In this document: one piece after another, positions 47,828-58,045 of the stretch
How positions within the stretch are numbered: the stretch's first letter is position 1
Layout of the letters: each line of letters opens with the position of its first letter
DNA from: Tieghemostelium lacteum
Taxonomy: Eukaryota > Evosea > Eumycetozoa > Dictyosteliales > Raperosteliaceae
Reading direction: 5' to 3'
NCBI GenBank assembly: GCA_001606155.1
Contig: LODT01000006.1
Coordinates: forward strand, 682,001 to 746,000
DNA: 64,000 nt
The notes under the pieces: generated by a model
The model's database searches: none
Seen by the model: the letters and a program-made list of their open reading frames with translations, nothing else
Told to the model about the DNA's origin: nothing
Position numbers and translations under genes: made by a program

Positions 47828-49743
47828 TTAAATTCTAGTTAAAGTGACATGGTGTGAAATATCTTTGGATAGTTGATAAATTTCATCAAATTCACTGGTT
47901 ATAGATTGGTCATGGTCTACTACAATTATAGATTCTTTCTCTTGTAGATTTCTAATGAGGTCACATATAACAGGTTTAACTTGTTGATCTAAATGATTAG
48001 ATAACTCGTCTATGATCATTAACGAAATTCTCGAAGACGAATGATTGTATATACACTCACTAAGACTAAATGGAGAATAGACTAACTCTATACATCTTCT
48101 CTGACCACCTGACAATTGGTTATAGGATCTCTGTTGAATTTTGTTACTTTCTTGATCTAGTTCATAGATCTCTAGTGCCAGTTCATCTTCATCTACATTT
48201 AATGTTGTAAATAGTTTACCTCCTGAAAGAGTAGCTAGATATTCATTGGCATAGGACTGAATCTCCCTGACAATTCCATCGAGTGCACGTACAGCTATAC
48301 CACCATTCGTACCAAACCCTTGTTCCCAGAACTCCAATCTCTGTATCTGTCTTTCCATTTCATCATTTTCTTCTATTACCTTACTTAACATATCACCAAT
48401 CTTATTTATCTGACCTTTTCTCTGAGATATCTGATCATCAAAAGGACTATCCATATCCTTTAACTCTAACATTTGATTTTCTTTATCCATTATTGAAGTC
48501 TTTATAAAATCAATTTTAACTCTATGACTATTCATACCTTCTAATTTACTATTCTTTTGTGTAATCTCTGTTACAACCAACTTTAATTCATCATTCAACT
48601 TTTCCATCATCTCTCTATGTATATTTTGCATATTCTCTAAAACCAATTTCTCCGATTTCTCTTCTTCTTGATATTTTTTTAAAGTCACTAATAAACTATC
48701 AATTTCCAATTGTAACACTTTCATTTTTTCAAAATTTCCACCCACATCTTTTGACTTTATCTCTTGACCACACTCCACACATTTTTTCAATTTTTGATGT
48801 TCATTCAAATGTTGTAAATCCTTCTGCATGTCTTTTACTTGTCTTTCCTCATAAGAACACTTGTACTTTAATTCAATTATTCTTTCGTTTTGTTCAATAC
48901 TCTTACTTGAAAATTCCCTTGTGAGGCTTGCTTTCTTATTCTCCATATCCATCTTCTTCTTAACCAACTCTCCAATCTCCTTCGAAAGTACTTCAATATC
49001 TCTTTCATTACTAACCACTGATATACCACCGAGTTCCTTTATATCCATATCCATTGAAACTCTCAATCTATCCATTTTATCTTGTCTCACCATCAACCAT
49101 TTCTCCAATTCCTTCTGAGGATTCATAGACTCCCAAGTCTGTAACTGACTCTTCAAACTATTAATCTCCATCCTCAAATTCTCAGAAACCTGATTAACAC
49201 TCTTTAACCTCTCTTTCACTAATTTATGAGCAGGTATGCACTGTCCCAACGAAAATGATTTTGACAATAACTCTTTTCTTCTTCTGTCACTATCTGTAAT
49301 GAAATTGGATATCGAACCCTGCCCCATATATACACACATTCTAAATAACTCATAATCCATACCAACTATATTATTAATAAGCATCTGTTGATCTAGAACA
49401 CCTTGTTTCATTTGAGGTACACCAGTCAACTCAACTTTAGCACCTTGCCCTCGTTTCTTTGATCTAGTAACTGTAATCTCCATGTCATCAACCATCAAAC
49501 TGACCTTAACTCTTGTGGATTTCTGATGATCATTTATAACTTCGTCACCTTTAATACTACTTGATGAACTACTCTGTTTCTTTGGACTTGTAGACCCAAA
49601 CAAACACCAAACTAATGCCTCAAATATAGTAGACTTTCCACTACCCATCTGACCCTTAACCATCACCATTTTACCCATTTCCCCCAAATTCATTGAAAAT
49701 TGATCTTTAACCCCACAAAACCCTTGAATTTCAATTTTTTTTA
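47828..49743 (-). CDS. SbcC/Rad50-like ATPase part of a mitochondrial-type SbcDC
   Basis: About 635 residues in the frame ending at 47828. It begins without an ATG inside the SbcD frame and overlaps it, so it is probably the second half of one protein. Features: Walker A GQMGSGKST, long coiled coils interrupted by a CVEC zinc hook, ABC signature QLSGGQRRCIEL, Walker B SLMIIDELSNHLD with D-loop, and H-loop IIVVDHDQS. At only ~640 residues it is far shorter than Rad50 (~1,300) and closer to phage T4 gp46 or short SbcC. Such proteins with SbcD/gp47 process DNA ends and hairpins. Nothing in codon use suggests contamination; neighbours are amoebal genes with introns. Confidence 0.75.
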
Positions 49744-51011
49744 ATATCCACTTTTCTTCCAAGAGGTACTATACTGTCTTGCTTGATACTTGATAGAATA
49801 TCTTTTCCTAGATACACCAATTCTTTAACTCTATCATCAGTACCATCACCTTGTTCCCTAACCTTCTCTTCTACATAATGGTCTATATAATCTTCTAATT
49901 TAAAAGCTACATTTGAATGTTTATCACTTATACTCTTAATTTGTTTACCATTTTTACCTTTAATTCCTTCAGCAGTAGTAATCACAGGTATATCATCATT
50001 TAACATGATTCTACGAAGTTCAATTGAAGGGGGTAGATGTTGTAGTGACTTTATATAGTCATCTGATTTCATGTGTTGTTTAGTTGCTTTCACCTCAACA
50101 TAATCCTTTGACTTTATATCACTAATCTTTGACTTGTGAACACTTTGAAAATCTACTGGAAATGTCAATTTATGATGTTTAGGTAACTCTGTAAAATCAA
50201 TAAACTGAGGTTGAATATTCAAACTATTTACAATAGCTACACCATGTGGATCATACATTTCACCAAAATTCTGTTGATAAGGACTACCTATATACCACAC
50301 ATTGTCACCTATCATCTGTCTCTTGTGATAGTGACCTAGATAACACGATCTTATATTCTTATTTCCATAAATAGACTCTTCATCAATTTTACCACTGGAT
50401 TTATATCCTCCATTTGAAATTGCTCCTTTGACTTCTGCATGTGCAAATACAGTCCATTTACCACCATTTCTATATTCCTCTTGACTTAATCTATCAAATA
50501 GCATCGTTTGGTCCACTCTAGTCTCTCTCCATGGTAAATACGCACATTTTGAATTATGATCATAAAAAGGGTCTGTACAGACTTTAAAATGTTTATACAA
50601 CTCAAACATTTGTAATCCATGTACCTGTCCATTCAAAGTCACCTGATCATGATTACCAACTAACAGTGTAGTTCCAATAGACTGTTTATCCCATTCATTA
50701 AACTCTTGTAAAAGTAAATCTAAATGTCTTACATATAGTAGATTTCTCTGATGCCAAAAGTCACCTAAAAACACTACATCCATAGGTTTACCATTACCAT
50801 CTCTATTCTCTACTGATATTTCTCTGACTTTCTGTAACACCTGTATAGTTCTATCTAATGTCTTTGTAGATACATGTAAATCTGTAAATAATAACTTTTT
50901 CCAATCTTCTTTTTTATTCCCATCAATTTTGTTTGTATTTGTTGAATAGGATACAAAGTTATAATATCTATTATACAGTAGTTGATGATGTGGTTTGAAT
51001 GCTTTGATCAT
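49731..51011 (-). CDS. SbcD/Mre11-like (phage gp47-type) nuclease with mitochondrial-type leader
   Basis: ATG at 51011; 426 residues to the TGA at 49731. Residues 1-30 (MIKAFKPHHQLLYNRYYNFV then SYSTNTNK) are basic, hydroxylated and acid-free, like a mitochondrial presequence. The calcineurin-like phosphoesterase motifs follow in order: FTDLHV, FLGDFWHQR, LLVGNHDQ, VFAHAEV, YLGHYHKRQ, then YIGSPYQQNFGE. The last reads more like T4 gp47/SbcD than eukaryotic Mre11. In bacteria and phages this nuclease works with SbcC/gp46 on DNA ends. The frame ends in an A8 run (49735-49742), and the ATPase frame continues immediately one base out of step. The pair is therefore probably a single fused gene with an indel, or a shifted read-through. 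Confidence 0.75.
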   Translation of the reverse strand: MIKAFKPHHQLLYNRYYNFVSYSTNTNKIDGNKKEDWKKLLFTDLHVSTKTLDRTIQVLQKVREISVENRDGNGKPMDVVFLGDFWHQRNLLYVRHLDLLLQEFNEWDKQSIGTTLLVGNHDQVTLNGQVHGLQMFELYKHFKVCTDPFYDHNSKCAYLPWRETRVDQTMLFDRLSQEEYRNGGKWTVFAHAEVKGAISNGGYKSSGKIDEESIYGNKNIRSCYLGHYHKRQMIGDNVWYIGSPYQQNFGEMYDPHGVAIVNSLNIQPQFIDFTELPKHHKLTFPVDFQSVHKSKISDIKSKDYVEVKATKQHMKSDDYIKSLQHLPPSIELRRIMLNDDIPVITTAEGIKGKNGKQIKSISDKHSNVAFKLEDYIDHYVEEKVREQGDGTDDRVKELVYLGKDILSSIKQDSIVPLGRKVDIKKN

Positions 51012-51105: not shown

Positions 51106-52539
51106 ATGACAACTTGTTATAAGTTACCACATTTAATAGAAATCAAAATCATAAAATTATCAATGTCACCAATATCATTTGATGCACATGTATCATTTGA
51201 TTGGAAATTTCCAAAAGAGTATCAGATAGCTCAGATGGAAGTTATTGATAAATGGGCTAAAAAAAGTTTAGGTTTTGTTTGTAAAAGATGGTTTAACATA
51301 GTTCACCAAAATATCTTTACAAAAAGTCTTGATTACTCAATTCGTGATCCCATTTTTAAACATTTGAATCAGATATTAAAAAAGGATAAAGAAATACCAA
51401 AGATAAATCAATCAACACAAACCATAGAAATTGACAATGAAATGAAAAGAATTTATTCAATTTCATTTAATTTTGATTTTGGTTCAAGTGAATATCAAGT
51501 TCGAGAACTAATTGAAAATCTCTCTGATTATCAACATTTACAACGAATTGAGTTTTCTAAAATTGATTTCCTCTACTTATTTCTTCGAATTGCAGGTGAA
51601 ATCTATCTCAATGACCGTTCTAAATTCCCATCATTAAAAACCATTACAATCGGTTTCCTAGAGAGTAGAGACGTGGGCAATGTTATGAATGAAATGATCA
51701 AATATGAATACTTGGGTATTGAAAATCTTGAAATTACTTACGCACCTGCTGATATGAGGCATTATACACTTAAATTACCAGTTCATACTTCAATTAAATC
51801 AATTTACATTGTAAAAAGTGAACTTTTAGATTGGACTATACAAAGCTTTCCCAATCTAACATTTTTGAAAATATATTTTTGTAAGATTACAATAGGGCAC
51901 TTTATTGCAATTCTTTCAACTCTCAATCGGTTACAAAATTTACAGTTGAATTTCGGACAAGATAGTAAAACGGAATGGAACATAGTATATTATAACGAGA
52001 ATCAAGATTTGGTAAATAATCTTTTAGATCTATTAAAATCGAATCAAACTATTACCTCATTGACTCTTGATGTTAACTTTCTTGATTCTGATTGTTACAT
52101 TTTTAGAATGATATATGATGAAATATTTATATACAATAAGACTATCACCAAAATAAATTTGGTACATTTCAACGCATCGCAATTGACTGATAATTTCTAT
52201 CAGTCACTATATGACTCATCAGTTACTAAACTAACAATTACAATTCGACCTGGAATGAACCAGTTTTATGAAATGATCAAGAATCCACATTGTAATATTC
52301 AGTCATTAAAAGTATATAGCCATTCTTTTCATCCAATTGAACTTCTTGAATCAATGGAATATAATCTGTCAATTAAGTATCTAACTATATTTTCACGCAG
52401 TTGGGAACCAATTCGATTGACATACAACCATTCATTACAAAGATTTATTTTTGATATGTACCATTTCAGTTATTCCTATGATAGTTCTTGTCTTGTAGAA
52501 TTCAATCAAAACTTTTTATCTTCAAAGAAAACAAATTAA
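51106..52539 (+). CDS. F-box-like / leucine-rich protein, tandem copy 1
   Basis: Single exon, 477 residues, ATG at 51106, only 94 bp from the divergent SbcD start. The N-terminus (LPHLIEIKIIKLSMSPISFD, then LGFVCKRWFNIVHQNIFTKS) is the degenerate F-box with linker typical of a large dictyostelid family. The rest is leucine-rich, repeat-like sequence (ENLEITYAP, LTFLKIYFCKI, NRLQNLQLNF, ITSLTLDVNF). It closely resembles the next gene. Possible SCF adaptor; targets unknown. Confidence 0.7.
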   Translation: MTTCYKLPHLIEIKIIKLSMSPISFDAHVSFDWKFPKEYQIAQMEVIDKWAKKSLGFVCKRWFNIVHQNIFTKSLDYSIRDPIFKHLNQILKKDKEIPKINQSTQTIEIDNEMKRIYSISFNFDFGSSEYQVRELIENLSDYQHLQRIEFSKIDFLYLFLRIAGEIYLNDRSKFPSLKTITIGFLESRDVGNVMNEMIKYEYLGIENLEITYAPADMRHYTLKLPVHTSIKSIYIVKSELLDWTIQSFPNLTFLKIYFCKITIGHFIAILSTLNRLQNLQLNFGQDSKTEWNIVYYNENQDLVNNLLDLLKSNQTITSLTLDVNFLDSDCYIFRMIYDEIFIYNKTITKINLVHFNASQLTDNFYQSLYDSSVTKLTITIRPGMNQFYEMIKNPHCNIQSLKVYSHSFHPIELLESMEYNLSIKYLTIFSRSWEPIRLTYNHSLQRFIFDMYHFSYSYDSSCLVEFNQNFLSSKKTN

Positions 52540-52694: not shown

Positions 52695-54185
52695 ATGGAA
52701 TTACCTCATTTATTAGAATCTAAAATTATTAAATTATCAATGTCACCAATATCATTTGATCCACCTACTTCTATTGAGTATCCTAATTCTAATGTTAGAG
52801 ATCTGATTCCACTTGTAGATAAATGGGCCAAATATAGATTAGGTTTTGTTTGTAAAAGATGGTTTAATATAGTTCATCAGAATATCTTAACAATAAGCCA
52901 TTTTCATCAGAGTTATAACTTGGATATAAGATCAGGTGATAGTTTTAAATATTTAACAAAATCTTTAAAAAAGGATATGGAAATTCCAGTGATCAATCAA
53001 TCAACACAAACAATTGAAATTGATAAAAGAAAAAGGAGAGTTTATAGTTTAACAGTACAATATGGTTTAAATGATTATAGTTCATTCATTCAAGAAGTTC
53101 AAGAATTAATTGAAATACTCTCACAATACCCACATTTAAGAGAAATTTGTTTTAATGGTGAAGGAACCAAACCATTTCTTTTCCTATTTCTTCGAATTTC
53201 TGGTGAAATCTATCTCAATGATCGAACTAGATTCACATCGTTAAAAACTATTGGTATAAGTAATCATGAAATGGATGAAGACAATATACTCTATGAAATG
53301 AGTAAATATGAATTCTTAGGTGCTGAGAAACTTAGAATGCACAACTCAAATAATTATAGGAAGTTTCCTCTAAATCCTCCTCGAGAACCAGTACACTCAT
53401 CAGGAATGAAATCAATCACCAATAGATATTTTGGCTTTGTTGATTGGACAATACATAGTTTCTCAAATCTAACACATTTGAAAACACTTTGTTCAATTTC
53501 ATTAGACCAATTTATCGGCATTCTATCAACGATCAAACAACTAAAATCTCTAAAGATAGAATTCAATGAATCTAAGAGTTGTGGTTCACATTTAAGTTTT
53601 AAAAAGTGGTGCAATAATATATATTTACAAGTGAATCCAGATTTGGTATCGACTTTAATAGAATTACTGAAATCAAATCAAACTATTAAATCATTAAGTT
53701 TAACAGTATTTGGAGATGTGAACCCTCAAAGTAGTTTCACAATTTTGAAAATGATCTATAATCAAATCTTCTTCCACAACAAAATCATCACTAAATTGAA
53801 ACTAATTAATTTTATAATATCACAACTGACTGATGAATTCTTTCAATCAATACATGATTCATCAATTCGATCTCTAATTCTTTACTCTTCCTCTGGACCA
53901 GTCATTCATCAGTTTTATGAAATGATCAAGAATCCAAATTGTAAAATTCAATCACTCAAAATCAATACTAATGAATATGATCCAATCCAACTTTTTGAAT
54001 CATTTCAAAATAACCAATCAATTAAATATTTAATAATACGCAACTTAAATATTGAATTCAGAGAAAAAATAGAACAATTTACAAAAAACATCAAAACAAT
54101 ACAAAGATTTAAAATTGGATCACAAGATTACAGTTATTGCTCTGAAAGATCTTGTCTCATAGAATACAAACAAAACTTTACATAG
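52695..54185 (+). CDS. F-box-like / leucine-rich protein, tandem copy 2
   Basis: Single exon, 496 residues, ATG at 52695. It is a paralogue of the gene just upstream, with the same N-terminal LPHLLESKIIKLSMSPISFD, LGFVCKRWFNIVHQNIL, QSTQTIEID and C-terminal motif SCLIEYKQNF. Leucine-rich segments fill the middle. Divergence between the two is substantial, so the duplication is not recent. Function as ubiquitin-ligase adaptor is inferred from the F-box-like start only. Confidence 0.7.
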   Translation: MELPHLLESKIIKLSMSPISFDPPTSIEYPNSNVRDLIPLVDKWAKYRLGFVCKRWFNIVHQNILTISHFHQSYNLDIRSGDSFKYLTKSLKKDMEIPVINQSTQTIEIDKRKRRVYSLTVQYGLNDYSSFIQEVQELIEILSQYPHLREICFNGEGTKPFLFLFLRISGEIYLNDRTRFTSLKTIGISNHEMDEDNILYEMSKYEFLGAEKLRMHNSNNYRKFPLNPPREPVHSSGMKSITNRYFGFVDWTIHSFSNLTHLKTLCSISLDQFIGILSTIKQLKSLKIEFNESKSCGSHLSFKKWCNNIYLQVNPDLVSTLIELLKSNQTIKSLSLTVFGDVNPQSSFTILKMIYNQIFFHNKIITKLKLINFIISQLTDEFFQSIHDSSIRSLILYSSSGPVIHQFYEMIKNPNCKIQSLKINTNEYDPIQLFESFQNNQSIKYLIIRNLNIEFREKIEQFTKNIKTIQRFKIGSQDYSYCSERSCLIEYKQNFT

Positions 54186-56935: not shown

Positions 56936-58045
56936 ATGATTCGTCTAAACACAATTAAAAATGTTTATTTGAAATCTATTAGATTAAACTTTAGAACAAA
57001 CAATCTAAGTGAAAAAGCATTAATATTACCATCAAAAAACAATTCAAATAATTTTGAATCGAATCAAAAGAAACAACGATCTAGCAGTAGAGACAAGTCA
57101 AAGCAGGGAGAGGAAAAGCAAAATAAGAAAGAACAGGAATGGAAAAAGAGAGATATATTATTTAGTTTATCATTTTTTGGTTTATTTGGTGGTAAAAAAG
57201 AAGAAGAGAATCCATATGCTAAAGAAAGTGGTAGAGTAAAAGGAAGTAAAATTAACTCACATGAAGATGCTTTAGATTGGTATCAGAGATACTATCAACA
57301 TAGAGACCCTGACCAATTCATTCAGGGTATAATACTACTACTCGGATCAGAAAGTAAAGAGTTTATTCTATCACAATTGAGACACATTAGAGTAGATAAA
57401 GATTTTAAAACCATTTCCCATATTCAAATTATTCAGTCATTTTATTATCTACCATTAGTGGGTTTCATCTCTGAGGTATTTAGACAGAATCCTCAGAAAG
57501 TAGCTCAATGGTACCAAGAACTATCAACTAATGATCAGATTAAAACACCATGGAAGAGTACATTTGGTGAATTGGATCCAATGATGTTGCTCAATCTTGC
57601 AGTATCTATAACTAACATTCCAGAGACTAAACAAATTGAGAGACAAATTGTACTACATTCATTGCAATCATTGTCACCTAAACCAGTAACAGAAGAGGAA
57701 TTAACCGATAACCTATCTAACCTCTCAAAATGGGCAAAGAATCAGACTAGTTCCATCTCAACACTTCCACTAATACTCATTGGTGAATATTTTGCCAATG
57801 GTAATGAAGAAAATGTTAAAAAGATCTCTAATGTTTGGAAAAATGCGCTAACTGGTCTAGAAAGACTAATGGTCGAGCCTGAAAAGAATTCAAATGACAA
57901 AGTTAAAAAACAACTTGATATCCAACAAATGGAAATTCTTATTGACGAATTGAATCAAGCCATAAGATTATTGATAAAGGACAAAAAAGCTTCTGAGATA
58001 TTAAATATACAATTATCTACCTATATAAAATCTCAAAAGGCATAA
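56936..58045 (+). CDS. Hypothetical protein with mitochondrial-type leader
   Basis: Single exon, 369 residues, ATG at 56936. The start MIRLNTIKNVYLKSIRLNFR is a good candidate presequence (basic, no acids). A Lys/Glu/Gln-rich linker follows, then a hydrophobic DILFSLSFFGLFGGKK and from about residue 100 a helical domain (DALDWYQRYYQHRDPDQFI, VAQWYQELSTN, IEILIDELNQAIRLL). FtsH/i-AAA-like proteins also have an FFG... segment there, but no ATPase motif is present. No family recognised. A perfect hairpin lies immediately upstream of the start codon. Confidence 0.6.
   Translation: MIRLNTIKNVYLKSIRLNFRTNNLSEKALILPSKNNSNNFESNQKKQRSSSRDKSKQGEEKQNKKEQEWKKRDILFSLSFFGLFGGKKEEENPYAKESGRVKGSKINSHEDALDWYQRYYQHRDPDQFIQGIILLLGSESKEFILSQLRHIRVDKDFKTISHIQIIQSFYYLPLVGFISEVFRQNPQKVAQWYQELSTNDQIKTPWKSTFGELDPMMLLNLAVSITNIPETKQIERQIVLHSLQSLSPKPVTEEELTDNLSNLSKWAKNQTSSISTLPLILIGEYFANGNEENVKKISNVWKNALTGLERLMVEPEKNSNDKVKKQLDIQQMEILIDELNQAIRLLIKDKKASEILNIQLSTYIKSQKA

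Follow-up and report, generated by a model that had tools for sequence, protein, structure and literature searches.

Yoshida, Claverie and Ogata (2011; PMC3175470) described a fusion of Mre11 and Rad50 in two dictyostelids, Dictyostelium discoideum (Q8T663) and Polysphondylium pallidum (D3AVR3). According to this article, the dictyostelid fusion is distant from canonical Mre11 and Rad50, coexists with separate genes for these proteins and was proposed to come from the viral gene pool, with neither a close phage relative of the dictyostelid form nor any targeting named in the parts consulted (PMC3175470). A word search of the main text of PMC3175470 retrieved "targeting" not at all and "mitochondri" once, in a statement on octocorals. 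Here, we describe a gene with the same domain order, Mre11-like (SbcD) followed by Rad50-like (SbcC), from the same group of organisms. The gene, referred to as SbcDC, is located on the minus strand at positions 47828-51011 of a 64,000-nucleotide stretch of the Tieghemostelium lacteum genome (hereafter the window; positions 682001-746000 of contig C4), and unlike the fusion described in 2011, it is split by one frame change in the assembly. From species and architecture, we infer that Q8T663 is the same gene as protein P0080 in our profile search. The initial annotation, by which a fused, organelle-targeted SbcDC would be a poorly described system, has to be qualified, since a fusion with a proposed viral origin had already been published in 2011 (PMC3175470). 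The new elements are a close family of fused virus proteins with its gene order, unfused forms in the same slot, a clade with the protein P0110 and a presequence-like pattern, for which no earlier report was found in the open-licence literature. On balance, we favor the reading that a phage-type SbcDC, acquired from a virus and used for end processing in mitochondria, is represented at this locus by its single-copy orthologue in the dictyostelids; the architecture, the conserved active sites and the full-length kinship with fused virus SbcDC proteins are evident at the level of sequence.

In bacteriophage T4, gp46 and gp47 help to make the 3' single-stranded ends for UvsX in recombination-dependent replication (PMC3175470). 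Like the window gene, they form a short Mre11/Rad50 pair and provide a mechanistic model, but they are encoded by separate genes and fall outside the clade described below, and the window protein groups neither with T4 nor with a T4-like cyanophage. The SbcD and SbcC proteins of Escherichia coli match the window protein in fold, motifs and structures, but their genes are separate, SbcC is longer, and they are distant in both trees. Nor do the two halves of the window protein group with the canonical eukaryotic Mre11 and Rad50 of the same genome. Mimivirus R555 and the fusions in algae, moss and diatoms are also fused and have a patchy distribution in eukaryotes. A second fusion type in our protein set (P0134-P0154), taken to be the R555/algal type from the names Trebouxia and Closterium, with R555 itself outside the set, formed a separate clade with support values of 99/96 in the SbcD tree and 100/98 in the SbcC tree.

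Close relatives in viruses were identified in IMG/VR, which contains 46 loci with a relative of the SbcD half. Eight of these (L009-L016) matched nearly the full length of the window SbcD with 33-37% identity (E 2e-83 to 1e-66; L014 and L015 gave identical match figures). A complete fused open reading frame (ORF) is present in seven of the eight, the remaining locus, L013, running off the end of its contig; the fused ORFs are 973-1008 amino acids long in six loci, and the mechanical ORF of L016 begins upstream. As in the dictyostelids, the virus fusions show homology over the full length, consist of one ORF and carry the zinc hook; they differ in being part of a replication module with PolA and UvsX and in having N-terminal tails that are poorer in serine and threonine and lack the motif R-x-[FY]-S discussed below. 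With L009 as the reference, the gene order PolA, two further ORFs, UvsX and then SbcDC was kept in all six other loci compared (L010-L014 and L016; L015 repeats the match of L014). Protein families recognized in L009 include DNA_pol_A (2.4e-61), the UvsX-like phrog_97 (8.3e-56) and the Holliday junction resolvase phrog_1770 (1.2e-31). In three related loci, SbcD and SbcC are encoded by separate ORFs in the slot after UvsX (L017:7971-11074, L018:7983-10930 and L019:7998-11582), with an overlap of 4 bases in both L017 and L018 and a spacing of 0.5 kb in L019, an arrangement that possibly represents the state before the fusion.

A scan of the viruses with the SbcC half yielded 12 loci with 22-35% identity. 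Among the matches listed from cultured phages, identities were 22-28% and the annotated records show SbcD and SbcC separately, so that the close kin found are metagenomic virus contigs. The viral status of these contigs rests on the IMG/VR classification and the replication module; in a terminase check, phrog_2, which we take to be the terminase large subunit, was matched in three of six virus records, yet likewise in 11 of the 14 genomes used as controls, and PF03237 in none of the six. A search of 84,980 bacterial and archaeal species genomes with two short patterns, which does not amount to proof of absence, returned 15 matching stretches, none of which encoded a relative. The virus protein was matched by 152 plasmid records, in no case over 80% of the query. 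As a side observation, the 20 plasmid records listed (H61-H80) match the SbcC part at 21.6-21.9% identity, are 80-145 kb in size and belong in 19 of 20 cases to Acinetobacter; these plasmids with an SbcC-like AAA ATPase are perhaps phage-plasmids.

To place the two halves, we used trees of 79 rows, comprising 66 of the 112 proteins from the profile search (P0079-P0086 and P0097-P0154, with P0128 from residue 986; P0035 and P0155-P0199 were left out), six proteins from the virus loci, the window protein, five named SbcD/SbcC pairs and, from the same genome as the window, Mre11 and Rad50. The phage-type and eukaryotic fused rows formed one clade in both the SbcD tree (358 columns; 98/99) and the SbcC tree (623 columns; 100/100), and the dictyostelids grouped with P0110 in each (99/98 and 100/100, respectively). 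T4, cyanophage S-SSM4, two herelleviruses, E. coli and the genome's own Mre11 and Rad50 were placed outside this clade in both trees, although several of the outside branches are very long, as flagged by a program warning, which makes their exact placement unsure, and one bacterium was sampled. Both halves thus group with the fused proteins from virus contigs, in support of the phage-like source suggested in the initial annotation, and neither joins the eukaryotic Mre11 or Rad50 of the same genome, a grouping that had been named beforehand as evidence against such a source. The Mre11 DNA-binding domain PF04152 had a single match in the genome, on contig C23, and none at the SbcDC locus. The 40 rows referred to as phage-type consist of 34 proteins without organism names and six virus-contig proteins, only the latter being classed as viral by their source; at least three of the 34 (P0098, P0099 and P0101) match virus loci (L010, L016 and L012). 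Within the 79-row trees, the eukaryotes were flanked by phage-type rows on either side, an arrangement that is weakly supported; a branch setting the phage-type rows apart was recovered in 12% and 6% of the bootstrap trees.

A survey of other dictyostelids, as had been suggested, recovered an orthologue with both halves in one frame in ten other records, which argues that the gene is in use. The search with the SbcC half identified eight dictyostelid proteins of 997-1115 amino acids with 39-43% identity, from D. purpureum (partial), D. discoideum, D. dimigraforme, A. subglobosum, C. fasciculata, H. album, P. violaceum (a gene model with a cut C-terminus) and the EukProt entry P0084; the profile search added D. 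firmibasis and P0128, the latter also from EukProt. P0084 and P0128 are called dictyostelid because of their position in the trees. P0128 is 1906 amino acids long and contains BRCA2-like domains (PF09169 and PF09103) merged with SbcDC, probably two adjoining genes that were fused by the gene predictor. The profile search, which scored just the 7992 candidates sharing most words and does not imply absence elsewhere, also yielded 34 further proteins of similar length with 28-36% identity to the C. fasciculata protein. P0110 is a fused SbcDC of 1120 amino acids with 38% identity to the C. fasciculata protein and 65 acid-free, arginine-rich residues at its N-terminus (longest contig 3540 bases); in the trees, it branches next to the dictyostelid proteins as their sister and perhaps comes from another amoeba. 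Below P0110, the scores dropped sharply to the second fusion type, including the algae Trebouxia and Closterium (E ~1e-89 and weaker). When the L009 virus protein was compared to the T. lacteum genome, it matched only this locus, with 45% identity over L009 residues 14-316 and 32% over residues 362-982, so SbcDC is single-copy at that sensitivity.

The locus is situated in a 1.03 Mb contig of the 23.3 Mb genome, which is assembled into 43 contigs, and the gene is AT-rich with a G+C fraction of 0.326, compared to 0.291 for the window; both features indicate a nuclear context. The SbcD-like ORF (49731-51011, minus strand) encodes 426 amino acids from an ATG start to a TGA stop, and the SbcC-like ORF (47828-49762, minus strand) comprises 644 codons counted from a mechanical TTG start. 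In the latter, there is no ATG ahead of codon 24, which falls within the head domain, so that it is unlikely to stand alone as a gene. The two ORFs are in different frames and overlap by 32 nucleotides, with a single change from the SbcD frame to the SbcC frame at a run of eight A in minus-strand letters (A8; 49735-49742). Joined across this point, the window frames align with seven dictyostelid orthologues without gaps or extra residues, which leaves no room for an intron and rules it out as the explanation. Runs of A8 occur twice in 26 ORFs of at least 200 amino acids (34,980 nucleotides), counting the run at the shift point by its position. An assembly error in this homopolymer is the likeliest cause of the split. 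The previously noted back-to-back arrangement is therefore correct as to the presence and order of the modules but not as to fusion in one ORF at this locus, where the modules lie in two frames in the assembly; they form one protein in the other dictyostelid records.

The SbcD half was recognized by the PHROGs family phrog_100 (SbcD-like, E 2.9e-34) and had no match in Pfam up to E = 1. It scored below the curated cut-off of the NCBIfam model TIGR00619 (21.3 bits versus 77.65) and lies outside the bacterial SbcD subfamily, yet may work like one of its members. The half has a nuclease fold with a capping domain, and all five phosphoesterase motifs with their metal-binding Asp, His and Asn residues are present in the phosphoesterase domain (approximately residues 37-290, 50142-50903, the end being estimated): DLH44-46, GDF83-85, GNHD119-122, HAE191-193 and GHYH226-229. 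The metal-site residues D44, H46, D84, N120, H121, H191, H227 and H229 are invariant in all rows of the 79-row alignment that have a residue at the position. The capping domain covers approximately residues 291-337 (50001-50141), with estimated bounds; alignments to the Staphylococcus aureus and E. coli SbcD structures extend to residue 336-342, and three E. coli SbcCD entries align through residue 413-414. A C-terminal helix pair at residues 372-408 (49788-49898; model helices 372-387 and 392-408) is a possible counterpart of the helix-loop-helix by which Mre11 binds the Rad50 coiled coil.

The SbcC half matched phrog_77 (SbcC-like, E 1.6e-58) and the Pfam family AAA_23 (E 6.9e-21), with a score below the curated cut-off of TIGR00618 (55.1 bits versus 478.5). 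Its AlphaFold2 model has a mean pLDDT of 86.9 and is structurally matched to Rad50 and SMC heads. On the minus strand, we located the Walker A motif GQMGSGKS (residues 37-44; 49631-49654), the Q-loop, a modeled antiparallel coiled coil, as is characteristic of SbcC, formed by helices 172-325 and 337-482 (48317-49249) with the CxxC zinc hook CVEC (residues 328-331; 48770-48781), the ABC signature LSGGQ (residues 550-554; 48101-48115), the Walker B motif LMIIDE (residues 581-586; 48005-48022), followed by the D-loop HLD (590-592), and the His switch VVDHD (residues 614-618; 47909-47923). Both Cys residues of the hook are invariant in a 44-row alignment. The complete set of nuclease and ATPase motifs reported for the locus, from the eight metal-site residues to Walker A through the His switch, was thus recovered, and the zinc hook in addition.

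The SbcD half begins with a basic extension of 36 residues (50904-51011, minus strand), a candidate mitochondrial presequence that has no acidic residue before position 30 and is modeled with low confidence at residues 1-28. The orthologues are also extended at the N-terminus, with different letters; ahead of the conserved core, the eukaryotic proteins in the count carry 36-65 residues (more in P0100, the gene model of which is doubtful), and their tails are mostly rich in serine and threonine with few acidic residues. The motif R-x-[FY]-S, which presumably resembles a processing-peptidase site, occurs in 6 of 10 eukaryotic extensions, compared to 0.27 expected from shuffled sequences, and in none of 39 phage-type N-termini, for which 0.05 were expected. 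The count was made without P0079, P0128 (no N-terminus) and P0132, and with the last 50 residues before the core for P0100. This pattern lends moderate support to mitochondrial import, and a mitochondrial place for SbcDC seems fairly probable from the sequences. Motif and composition make the N-termini of the orthologues presequence-like, as the initial annotation had proposed for this gene; the motif is missing in the window copy, and organelle targeting is suggested by these features. No report on the localization of the dictyostelid fusion was found in the open-licence literature, outside supplements. Organelle presequences begin with few acidic residues. In the second, Mimivirus/algal fusion type, the first 40 residues contain 0-1 acidic residues in 7 of 12 proteins (P0134, P0137 and P0151-P0155) and 2-6 in four (P0135, P0138, P0141 and P0144), with P0143 having no extension.

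Several observations weigh against our reading. The SbcDC ORF is broken in the T. lacteum assembly. The strict motif was chosen after the sequences had been seen, it is absent from the window copy, P0084, P0085 and P0110, and three of its six carriers are close kin (D. discoideum, D. dimigraforme and D. firmibasis). With the looser pattern R-x-[FYL]-[SAT], 7 of 10 eukaryotic extensions (1.04 expected) and 5 of 39 phage-type N-termini (1.66 expected) are matched, and since the phage-type rows are also above chance, the two groups are separated less well. Many phage-type N-termini are likewise basic. Together with the lack of a cleavage-like motif in the window tail and the palindromic ribosomal DNA (rDNA) elements carried by D. 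discoideum (PMC6759168), these basic tails would fit a phage-type SbcDC that acts in the nucleus or cytosol, for example on extrachromosomal palindromic rDNA or incoming DNA, its N-terminal extension being a basic tail. We consider this unlikely, but worth keeping in view, because the eukaryotic tails are rich in serine and threonine and poor in acidic residues, the strict motif separates 6 of 10 eukaryotic from 0 of 39 phage-type N-termini, and the genome contains separate Mre11 and Rad50-like genes. A further point concerns the origin. In a tree of 39 rows, made without 12 phage-type rows, four dictyostelid rows and all distant groups and with L017-L019 added as the nearest outgroup, the phage-type rows (87/81) were sister to the eukaryotes with P0110 (87/85) rather than enclosing them. 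Kinship with the fused virus proteins is firm by these trees, nesting inside them is not, and which way the gene was transferred is judged from how broad the virus side is and from its synteny.

The sister relationship would also be expected if the virus family had taken the fused gene from an amoeba. We regard such a reverse transfer as very unlikely, as the phage-type rows, 40 in number, span a much wider range than the one narrow eukaryotic group, the virus loci keep the gene in the replication module and unfused forms occupy the same slot in related loci; the same features make a viral source of the dictyostelid SbcDC highly probable. Derivation from the Mre11 and Rad50 of the amoeba itself, or ancient vertical descent of a bacterial SbcCD, could account for the fold shared with Mre11 and Rad50, but both half-trees exclude the genome's own pair and E. 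coli SbcCD, albeit with long outside branches and one bacterium, and this seems hardly credible. Contamination of the assembly with bacterial or phage DNA, which the prokaryote-type protein might suggest, can be dismissed: the gene is AT-rich and lies within a 1.03 Mb contig, and orthologues are found in 10 other dictyostelid records, eight of which share 39-43% identity with the SbcC half. The frame change between the halves might mean that SbcDC has become a pseudogene in decay in this species, or that there are two genes instead of one. This is improbable, given that the frames are otherwise open over 426 and 644 codons with all checked motifs intact, that ATG first occurs at codon 24 of the SbcC ORF, and that the break falls on an A8 run, a length seen twice in the 26 ORFs, this run included. 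The homopolymer at the shift point and the intact halves would likewise suit a frame change that is real and used, in which ribosomal or transcriptional slippage on A8 yields SbcD alone and SbcDC in a certain ratio. The seven other aligned dictyostelid proteins are unbroken, although gene models may hide a break, and we know of no dictyostelid case of such slippage, so that there is little to recommend this explanation.

The preferred reading, a virus-derived SbcDC in mitochondria, suggests the following course of events. An ancestor of the dictyostelids would have acquired the already fused gene from the virus family with the UvsX module, and its N-terminus would have turned into a mitochondrial presequence, so that the protein would now act in the mitochondrial matrix. 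There, DNA ends or hairpins would be bound by two copies of SbcDC and the duplex clamped by their ATPase heads, while the SbcD part would cleave hairpins or blocked ends and carry out resection to 3' tails. The next step, recombination-dependent repair or replication of mitochondrial DNA, would fall to the bacterial-type RecA encoded elsewhere in the genome. By analogy with SbcCD, Mre11/Rad50 and T4 gp46/47, the enzyme should be an ATP-gated nuclease that processes ends and hairpins and can tether DNA via the zinc hook. The location of the virus kin downstream of UvsX and the presence of a bacterial-type RecA make recombination-dependent repair or replication of mitochondrial DNA the best reading of its precise role, for which we judge the chances to be evenly balanced.

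Other repair genes of the genome are consistent with a division of labor. A canonical Mre11 gene with the PF04152 domain is located at C23:1565990, a Rad50-like gene, named from its AAA_23 match, N-terminus and size, near C23:739650, and a bacterial-type RecA gene, which scored 431 bits to PF00154, at C30:1018999-1019781; with these as separate genes, SbcDC may have a task of its own. If SbcDC is mitochondrial, this RecA is its likely partner, the RecA of D. discoideum being, as we assume, mitochondrial. Transfer of the whole virus module was considered and is not supported, since the genome's PolA genes are only weakly similar to the virus PolA (32% identity over 234 residues, E 2e-10, and 27%, E 2.3e-8) and its RecA, which was not compared directly with UvsX, is bacterial-type. 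A precedent for phage-type parts in mitochondria is provided by the T7 gp4-like helicase-primase Twm1 of D. discoideum (PMC6299598).

The processing of broken DNA ends in mitochondria is poorly settled in most eukaryotes. If our reading is correct, a recombination nuclease joins the phage-type components already recognized in organelle replication, and with an SbcDC that is kept across the dictyostelids, including a model organism amenable to knock-outs and tagging, the question of end processing becomes directly testable. As to the viral origin proposed in 2011, virus relatives this close, with an identical fusion and a shared gene order, narrow it to a specific donor family that can be checked. 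More tentatively, and with doubt prevailing, eukaryotes may have taken ready-made SbcDC fusions of viruses into their organelles on more than one occasion, from UvsX-module phages to amoebae (the dictyostelids and perhaps the source of P0110) and from the Mimivirus/algal type to algae. Phage-style end processing coupled to RecA would, if this is true, be a general and overlooked way of organelle DNA upkeep.

Two adjoining ORFs next to SbcDC on the plus strand (51106-52539 and 52695-54185; 477 and 496 amino acids) have similar starts (IIKLSMSPISFD) and look like a local gene family. Further along the same strand, an ORF of 369 amino acids (56936-58045), the first 25 residues of which are basic and acid-free, encodes another candidate mitochondrial protein.

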